DNA of 58,316 nt from Thaumarchaeota archaeon casp-thauma4 (lineage in GTDB: Archaea; Thermoproteota; Nitrososphaeria; Nitrososphaerales; Nitrosopumilaceae): NCBI GenBank assembly GCA_001510295.1, contig LFEZ01000017.1, positions 1 through 58,316 of the forward strand, written 5' to 3'. Positions 12,611 to 14,656 of the stretch are shown in pieces; position 1 is the first letter of the stretch; the number at the start of each line of letters is the position of its first letter. The position numbers and the translations under genes are program-made. The notes beneath the pieces are model-generated. The model was not told where the DNA came from, did not search any database, and was given only the letters and a program-made list of their open reading frames with translations.

Positions 12611-12733
12611 TGGTCCCCACTGAAGGATTTGAACCTTCGACAACCCGATTTCTGTATGCCTAGTAGACTACTGTTATTCAGCCCTAAGCCGACAACTACA
12701 GTCGGAAGCTCTACCAGGCTGAGCTAAGTGGGG
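12611..12733 (-). tRNA. tRNA-Tyr(GUA) with a 46-nt intron
   Basis: Reading the minus strand, a CCCCACT/AGTGGGG acceptor stem, D-arm (GCTC/GAGC), anticodon stem TCCGA/TCGGG, T-arm GAAGG/CCTTC, A73 and an encoded CCA are all present. The anticodon GUA is at 12697-12699. An intron of about 46 nt (12650-12695) interrupts the loop after position 37, the canonical archaeal site, and must be removed by the splicing endonuclease. A T-rich run just downstream (12601-12608 on this strand) is a plausible terminator. Confidence 0.93.
12650..12695 (-). other. tRNA-Tyr intron
   Basis: Insertion between G37 and A38 of tRNA-Tyr, deduced by fitting the mature 77-nt cloverleaf to both flanks. The flanks can pair across the exon-intron junctions in a bulge-helix-bulge-like manner, as expected for a substrate of the archaeal endonuclease. 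Exact ends could shift by a base or two. Confidence 0.8.
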
Positions 12734-13468: not shown

Positions 13469-13882
13469 ATGAGCAAACCTTCTGATTTAGGATCATTAAA
13501 AATTGGTTCTTATATTTTACTGCCAGTTGGTGATCAACCTACCGGTGAGCCTTGTAGAATATCTGAATATGATACGAGTAAACCTGGAAAACATGGTGCA
13601 GCAAAGGCACGAATTGTTGGAGTAGGTATCTTTGATGGAGCTAAACGTCCACATGTAGGTCCTGTAAGTATGCAAATCCATGTACCGCTAATTGATAAAA
13701 GAAATGGTCAAATCATATCGATGACTGGTTCTGAAATTCAAGTTATGGATGGAGAAACATTTGAAACCGTTGACATACAAATGATTGATGAAGAAGTTGA
13801 CGGAAAATTGCAACAAGGTCAGGATATTGAATATTGGAATGTTATGGGAAGAACTAAAATCATGCGAATTAAAACATCCTAA
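13469..13882 (+). CDS. Translation factor aIF5A
   Basis: Archaeal homologue of eIF5A/EF-P, which helps ribosomes form difficult peptide bonds. 137 residues: an SH3-like N-domain and an OB-fold C-domain. The modification loop DTSKPGKHGAAKAR is intact and Lys41 corresponds to the (deoxy)hypusine site. The ATG follows a TATA-like element at suitable distance. Immediately followed by a C/D box guide RNA candidate and then dph6, another translation-factor modification gene (diphthamide on aEF2), so this is a small translation-quality neighbourhood. Confidence 0.95.
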   Translation: MSKPSDLGSLKIGSYILLPVGDQPTGEPCRISEYDTSKPGKHGAAKARIVGVGIFDGAKRPHVGPVSMQIHVPLIDKRNGQIISMTGSEIQVMDGETFETVDIQMIDEEVDGKLQQGQDIEYWNVMGRTKIMRIKTS

Positions 13883-13885
13883 ATT

Positions 13886-13950
13886 GGATGCTGATGATGA
13901 TTGGAAAAGCCAACTGATTTCTGATGAAGATTATGAGTATTGAGGCATCC
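13886..13950 (+). ncRNA. C/D box guide sRNA, predicted target C34 of elongator tRNA-Met
   Basis: A 65-nt element in the aIF5A-dph6 gap. It has a perfect 6-bp terminal stem (GGATGC at 13886-13891, GCATCC at 13945-13950). C box is ATGATGA (13894-13900), D' box CTGA (13914-13917), a 3-nt spacer, C' box CTGATGA (13921-13927) and a D box TTGA (13940-13943, one change from CTGA). The D guide between C' and D is exactly 12 nt (AGATTATGAGTA). Its complement contains CTCAT, the CAU anticodon context of elongator tRNA-Met. The nucleotide paired five positions before the D box is C34, which other archaea 2'-O-methylate with a C/D guide. The D' guide (13901-13913) can fold on itself and its target is unknown. 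Confidence 0.75.
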
Positions 13951-13966
13951 TATTTTTTATTTTAAA

Positions 13967-14656
13967 ATGAAATTAGCTGCATTATTTTCTGGTGGAAAAG
14001 ATAGCACATATGCCATTTATCTTGCAAAAAAATTGTCTCACTCAGTTGATGTATTATTGACATTATATCCTCATTCTAGTGAAAGTCATCTACTTCACTA
14101 CCCGAACATAAAATTCACTTCTTTACAAGCCGAATCTATGAAAATTCCACAACTCATAGAAGAAATTATATCCACTGATGCTAATGTTGAATTTGAAAAA
14201 CTTGAAAAACTAATTACTCTTGCAAAAGAAAATTACTCTATTGAAGGCATTGTTCATGGTGGAATTCTCAGTGAATATCAAAAGGATAACTTTTCTTTGA
14301 TTTGTAAAAAAAATAATTTAGAAATTATATCTCCTTTATGGAATACAAAACCTGAATCTTACATGAAAGAATTACTGGAAGAAAATTTTGAATACATTAT
14401 TTCCAGTGTGAGTTCGGATGGTTTGAATGATTCGTGGCTTGGACAAATAATTGATAAAAATGGATTAGAAAATCTTGAAAAATTACAAAAAAAATTTGGA
14501 TTCAATCTTAATTTTGAAGGTGGAGAGGCTGAAACCTTTGTAATAAATTGTCCATTATTTGAAAAATCATTGTTAATTCAAAATTCAAGAATCGAATGGG
14601 ATGGTTATAGGGGAAGATTTGAAATATTGGAGGCAAAATTAAAAGATAATGCTTGA
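13967..14656 (+). CDS. dph6: Diphthine--ammonia ligase (Dph6 / DUF71 ATP pyrophosphatase)
   Basis: Last step of diphthamide synthesis on the conserved His of elongation factor 2: ATP-dependent amidation of diphthine. About 229 residues from ATG 13967, which puts the PP-loop SGGKDS at residues 8-13, as in the family. The upstream TTG would add residues that overlap the guide RNA. Further signatures are GIVHGGILSEYQ, SPLWN and the C-terminal GGEAETFV segment. Its stop overlaps the SRP54 start by 8 nt. Confidence 0.88.
   Translation: MKLAALFSGGKDSTYAIYLAKKLSHSVDVLLTLYPHSSESHLLHYPNIKFTSLQAESMKIPQLIEEIISTDANVEFEKLEKLITLAKENYSIEGIVHGGILSEYQKDNFSLICKKNNLEIISPLWNTKPESYMKELLEENFEYIISSVSSDGLNDSWLGQIIDKNGLENLEKLQKKFGFNLNFEGGEAETFVINCPLFEKSLLIQNSRIEWDGYRGRFEILEAKLKDNA

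Follow-up and report, generated by a model that had tools for sequence, protein, structure and literature searches.

A conserved C/D box sRNA between aIF5A and dph6 in ammonia-oxidizing archaea, a probable double guide for 23S rRNA C2510 and C34 of elongator tRNA-Met

The window (the whole stretch of 58,316 nucleotides that was analysed, carried by contig G000:C17 of a 661-kb assembly that is 60.75% complete) contains a 65-nt C/D box sRNA at 13886-13950, within the gap between aIF5A and dph6 (13883-13966). We consider it very probable, from sequence comparison, that this sRNA is an archaeal C/D box double guide for the methylation of 23S rRNA C2510 and of C34 of elongator tRNA-Met. The RNA, probably cut from the aIF5A transcript, would assemble with L7Ae, Nop5, and fibrillarin. 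The D' guide would target the 23S rRNA residue corresponding to Escherichia coli C2510 for 2'-O-methylation, and the D guide the wobble C34 of elongator tRNA-Met. Fibrillarin is encoded by the same genome (contig G000:C10, E value 8e-85), and we infer the expression of the sRNA, the assembly of the RNP, and both methylations.

The sRNA begins 3 nt past the stop codon of aIF5A and ends short of dph6, whose start we place at the ATG at 13967 and not at the TTG at 13940 given by the ORF list (Table 1). It has C, D', C', and D boxes in that order, a terminal stem, and a size within about 50 to 70 nt, the layout of an archaeal C/D box sRNA. An earlier note on this DNA had described the stem, the boxes, a 3-nt D'-C' spacer, and a 12-nt D guide, all of which we read at the same coordinates. 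The C box that it had named, ATGATGA at 13894-13900, is present as a second, overlapping register of TGATGATGA, but it is canonical only in part of the genus, and distant homologues favour TGATGA at 13892-13897, abutting the stem. The self-folding proposed for the D' guide can be read as a TTGG/CCAA hairpin, but relatives read GAGAAAAGCCTT or CGGAAAAGCCGT; since the hairpin is not conserved, we regard it as incidental and rule it out as a functional fold.

Table 1. Features of the sRNA locus (positions in the window)
Feature	Position	Strand	Evidence
aIF5A coding sequence, upstream host gene	13469..13882	+	ORF; directly 5' of the sRNA in most named loci listed
C/D box sRNA, 65 nt	13886..13950	+	Model R1 match, 9.1e-23, exact coordinates (own sequence in training set)
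Terminal stem, 5' strand GGATGC	13886..13891	+	Pairs with 13945-13950; 100% paired, 2 compensated pairs
C box TGATGA (overlapping register ATGATGA, 13894-13900)	13892..13897	+	ATGA invariant in distant homologues
D' guide core GGAAAAGCC	13903..13911	+	9 bp to 23S rRNA; co-variation; E. coli numbering by alignment
D' box CTGA	13914..13917	+	Invariant in 12-sequence alignment
C' box TGATGA	13922..13927	+	TGAYGA in homologues
D guide AGATTATGAGTA, 12 nt	13928..13939	+	11 bp to A31-U41 in congeners; core conserved
D box TTGA	13940..13943	+	NTGA in nearly all homologues
Terminal stem, 3' strand GCATCC	13945..13950	+	Pairs with the 5' strand
T6 run 3' of the sRNA, possible transcription end	13953..13958	+	Predicted, sequence only
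dph6 (diphthine-ammonia ligase-like ATPase) coding sequence	13967..14656	+	3' of the sRNA in most named loci listed

Since neither 23S rRNA nor elongator tRNA-Met was found in the 60.75%-complete assembly, the target sequences for both guides were taken from congeners. The core of the D' guide pairs with GGCUUUUCC of 23S rRNA in all Nitrosopumilaceae genomes examined. Alignment to the E. coli 23S rRNA places the segment at U2506-C2516 and N+5 at C2510, which we take to lie at a distance of four residues from U2506 in the peptidyl transferase centre. C2510 lies opposite G13909, 5 nt ahead of the D' box, and position 2512 opposite A13907; guide positions 1 and 2 are mismatched or variable. The core has exactly one match in 23S rRNA, and in 1.5% of trials a shuffled core matched rRNA. 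When 250 genomes of the order were scanned with CTCGATGTCGGCTNTTCC, all Nitrosopumilaceae matches had U at 2512 and all matches from other families had C, and the guide residue (A or G) tracks this position in 38 of 39 genomes (31 T/A and 7 C/G, with one C/A in G054). The predicted guide/rRNA compensation is a single event on one branch, but it is exact. The earlier note had left the D' guide without a target, a view that gives way to the C2510 match with its compensatory change in guide and target; having a 23S target for this guide makes the sRNA a putative mixed tRNA/rRNA double guide.

The D' guide is also the most conserved part of the sRNA, reaching deeper than the tRNA guide, and is kept where the D guide differs (G036, f3, f4, and f12). 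The G036 locus (L309), which has a different genomic location, keeps the D' guide and has CTCAATTTTG in place of the D guide. Three matches to the covariance model (R1, below) were found in G054 (L051, L275, and L276); the copy on contig C11 has guide A against rRNA C at 2512 together with a different D guide, and is possibly a misbinned contig or a paralogue.

In the elongator tRNA-Met genes of congeners (CCAG, intron, A31, CUCAUAA, UCUGG), the D guide pairs over 11 bp with the anticodon arm, and C34 lies at N+5, opposite G13935, 5 nt ahead of the D box. By cloverleaf logic, the intron lies directly 5' of A31 (30/31) and could be touched only by the unconserved guide position 1; it is not needed for pairing because positions 31-41 are all in one exon. 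Shuffled D cores matched a tRNA in 0.16% (10 nt) and 0.06% (11 nt) of trials, and a search of rRNA with the D guide found no consistent site. The core is conserved among homologues, though altered in some relatives (broken or different in G026, G008/G012/G024, G036, f3, f4, and f12). Together, the 11 bp in congeners, C34 at N+5, and the conserved core support the target that the earlier note had predicted. Introns just before A31 of elongator tRNA-Met were likewise seen across genera at L096-L111 and L115; they are non-canonical and vary in length and sequence.

Conservation was assessed at several depths. BLAST found the gap sequence in 29 of 61 genomes, the own one included, and in an alignment of homologues the guide cores and boxes were invariant while the spacers varied. 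Among 12 diverse homologues, the terminal stem was paired in 100% of cells, with two compensated pairs. R1, built from 12 sequences including the own one, found homologues in 184 of 250 genomes and 48 of 60 genera of the order, and in 125 of 150 genomes of a sample of the class; the latter include families f18, f21, and f22, from other orders of the class, with both guides. The conservation of this gap in related genomes, which the earlier note had proposed as a check, extends to boxes, stem, and guide cores. A pattern scan of named genomes, which required AGCC..CTGA and GATTAYGAG and left the upstream GAAA/GAAG, the D box, and the stem free, matched at least 80 named loci. Among the matches listed, these three free elements were conserved, and GAAAAGCC or GAAGAGCC was present in 80 of the 80 named loci, although the pattern had fixed only AGCC there. 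The titles name Nitrosopelagicus, Nitrosopumilus, Nitrosarchaeum, Nitrosotenuis, Nitrosotalea, Cenarchaeum, Nitrososphaera, Nitrosocosmicus, and unclassified archaea. The match of this putative sRNA is not chance, and the predicted guide is retained through its whole archaeal class.

The gene order aIF5A-sRNA-dph6-SRP54 is also kept, with aIF5A/dph6 synteny, usually with SRP54 further downstream, in 49 of the 80 named loci listed. However, a different gene adjoins the sRNA in Nitrosocosmicus-type loci, so the neighbourhood is no functional requirement, and several Nitrososphaeraceae carry the sRNA elsewhere. The synteny is most simply explained by co-transcription from aIF5A. Most archaeal C/D box sRNA genes lack a promoter motif of their own and overlap ORF ends (PMC7994747), and the place of this one after aIF5A, kept with dph6, fits a release from the aIF5A transcript. 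Of the earlier suggestion that the sRNA lies between genes that tune translation factors, the placement stands, as conserved synteny, but not a functional tie to aIF5A or diphthamide.

Guides for Cm34 of tRNA-Met are already known in Pyrococcus (sR49) and haloarchaea, with 18 predicted cases (Grosjean 2008, PMC2584109), in agreement with the earlier statement that other archaea methylate this residue with a C/D guide. They are, like the present sRNA, stand-alone C/D box RNAs predicted for Cm34 of elongator tRNA-Met. However, part of the guide pairing in haloarchaea and Pyrococcus is said to involve the intron, which requires methylation to occur before splicing (PMC2584109), whereas the duplex described here lies in the exon after the 30/31 intron. 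The second guide of the present sRNA has an identified 23S target (sR49 being compared by its tRNA guide alone). The human elongator tRNA-Met is also methylated at C34 by C/D RNPs (Vitali and Kiss 2019, as cited in PMC7994747); as far as that citation goes, the tRNA position is the same but two RNPs with different guides are involved, and we claim no sequence relationship.

Counting positions from the A-loop, we take Cm4456 of human 28S rRNA to be the same position as E. coli C2510, so that the 23S site is apparently common to both. Cm4456 is guided by SNORD49A/B (PMC9941101). These are C/D RNAs for apparently the same rRNA Cm, but they are eukaryotic snoRNAs whose homology with the present sRNA is not claimed. 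We know of no tRNA guide in SNORD49A/B. In Rfam, no family reached its gathering threshold with the sRNA; the best match was sR41 (RF01126), with 27.5 bits against a gathering score of 54 bits. sR41 is an orphan for which 23S G1950 has been suggested as a target; the general C/D layout is alike, but the targets differ and the score is far below threshold, and we rejected this assignment. C/D guides of mesophilic ammonia-oxidizing archaea are little described, and a literature search lacking most subscription journals found no description of any, this one included. The predicted marks are precise and testable, in very abundant marine organisms.

Is the D' guide simply an orphan, with only the D guide functional? 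Second guides without a target have been reported for the tRNA-directed sRNAs of Pyrobaculum (Lui 2018, as cited in PMC7994747), but here the D' core is the most conserved element, it survives loss or change of the D guide (G036, G026, f3, f4, and f12), and it co-varies with 23S position 2512, which leaves a single-target tRNA guide highly improbable. The present sRNA, class-wide and with a tRNA wobble arm and an arm directed near the peptidyl transferase centre, would then be an exception to the empty second arm, insofar as the cited account describes that pattern. Action of the D guide on a different CAU tRNA, either initiator tRNA-Met or tRNA-Ile2, and not on the elongator is very unlikely, too. 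The CUCAUAA loop is common to all three, M. maripaludis and P. furiosus reportedly have Cm34 in their initiator tRNA (PMC7668247), and tRNA-Ile2 with A31-U39 matches the guide core in one subclade. However, initiator tRNA-Met and tRNA-Ile2 have G31-C39 in the own subclade, and in the N. brevis-like group only the 7-nt loop plus a wobble pairs with the guide, versus 11 bp for the elongator. Hardly any probability remains for an element that is chiefly an L7Ae-binding k-turn at the 3' end of aIF5A, controlling aIF5A/dph6 expression and guiding only secondarily. Such a role would suit an sRNA that begins 3 nt past the aIF5A stop in conserved synteny, but both guide sequences are conserved, Nitrosocosmicus-type loci place another gene beside the sRNA, and archaeal sRNAs commonly overlap the 3' ends of ORFs (PMC7994747). 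We therefore favour the double guide for 23S C2510 and elongator tRNA-Met C34.

The only CAU tRNA in the own assembly (GGCTCATAACC) we read as tRNA-Ile2, a tRNA whose C34 becomes agmatidine. Within the genus, one set of genomes (the own one, G025, G005, G006, G007, G013, G015, G017, and others) combines C39 in tRNA-Ile2 with an intact tRNA guide. In a second set (G002, G008, G011, G012, G026, and G030) tRNA-Ile2 has T39, so that C32-C40 now matches the guide core, and all sRNAs found in these six genomes have a changed tRNA guide and an intact rRNA guide. Position 2 of the tRNA guide is A in G002, G011, and G030; in G008, G012, and G024 there is a mismatch at A35 (C faces A35 in G008 and G012); and in G026 (L042) the D guide has a 2-nt deletion (GATTGAG) with an intact D' guide, which may reflect either genuine decay or a mistake in the assembly. 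The sRNA may couple two marks of translation accuracy and have to spare tRNA-Ile2, the A31-U39 form having pressured the tRNA guide into decay while the rRNA guide was kept; we hold this doubtful, and the coincidence is a lead and not a test, given that the division into two sets resembles a single clade split. Replacement of G31-C39 by A31-U39 was noted in the tRNA-Ile2 of one Nitrosopelagicus subclade, at L386, L401, L404-L406, L416, L419, and L420 (T39 in all, A31 read in L386).

Other targets were considered for the altered D guides and rejected. That of G008/G012/G024, GATTACGAG, pairs poorly with tRNA-Thr(CGU), which reads CCTCGTAAGC, and no tRNA to match it came out of a pattern search; tRNA-Ser(CGA) or tRNA-Gln(CUG) had no supporting match for f4 and f12 among the tRNAs recovered. 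A tRNA-Met with intron called by ARAGORN at L004 reads as an intron-containing tRNA-Leu(UAA). Sibling C/D RNAs at L266, L307, L308, L310, and L311 (f16, f2, f10, and f8) have a D guide, GATCTTGAG, whose complement CTCAAGATC would put C34 of tRNA-Leu(CAA) at N+5, and differ for the most part in their D' guides. A second C/D RNA with a similar stem (AATGC/GCATT) occurs in g29 genomes (L278 and L279). Within the window itself, Rfam found a tRNA-Tyr(GUA) with a 46-nt intron at 12614-12733 on the minus strand, missed by ARAGORN with default settings.
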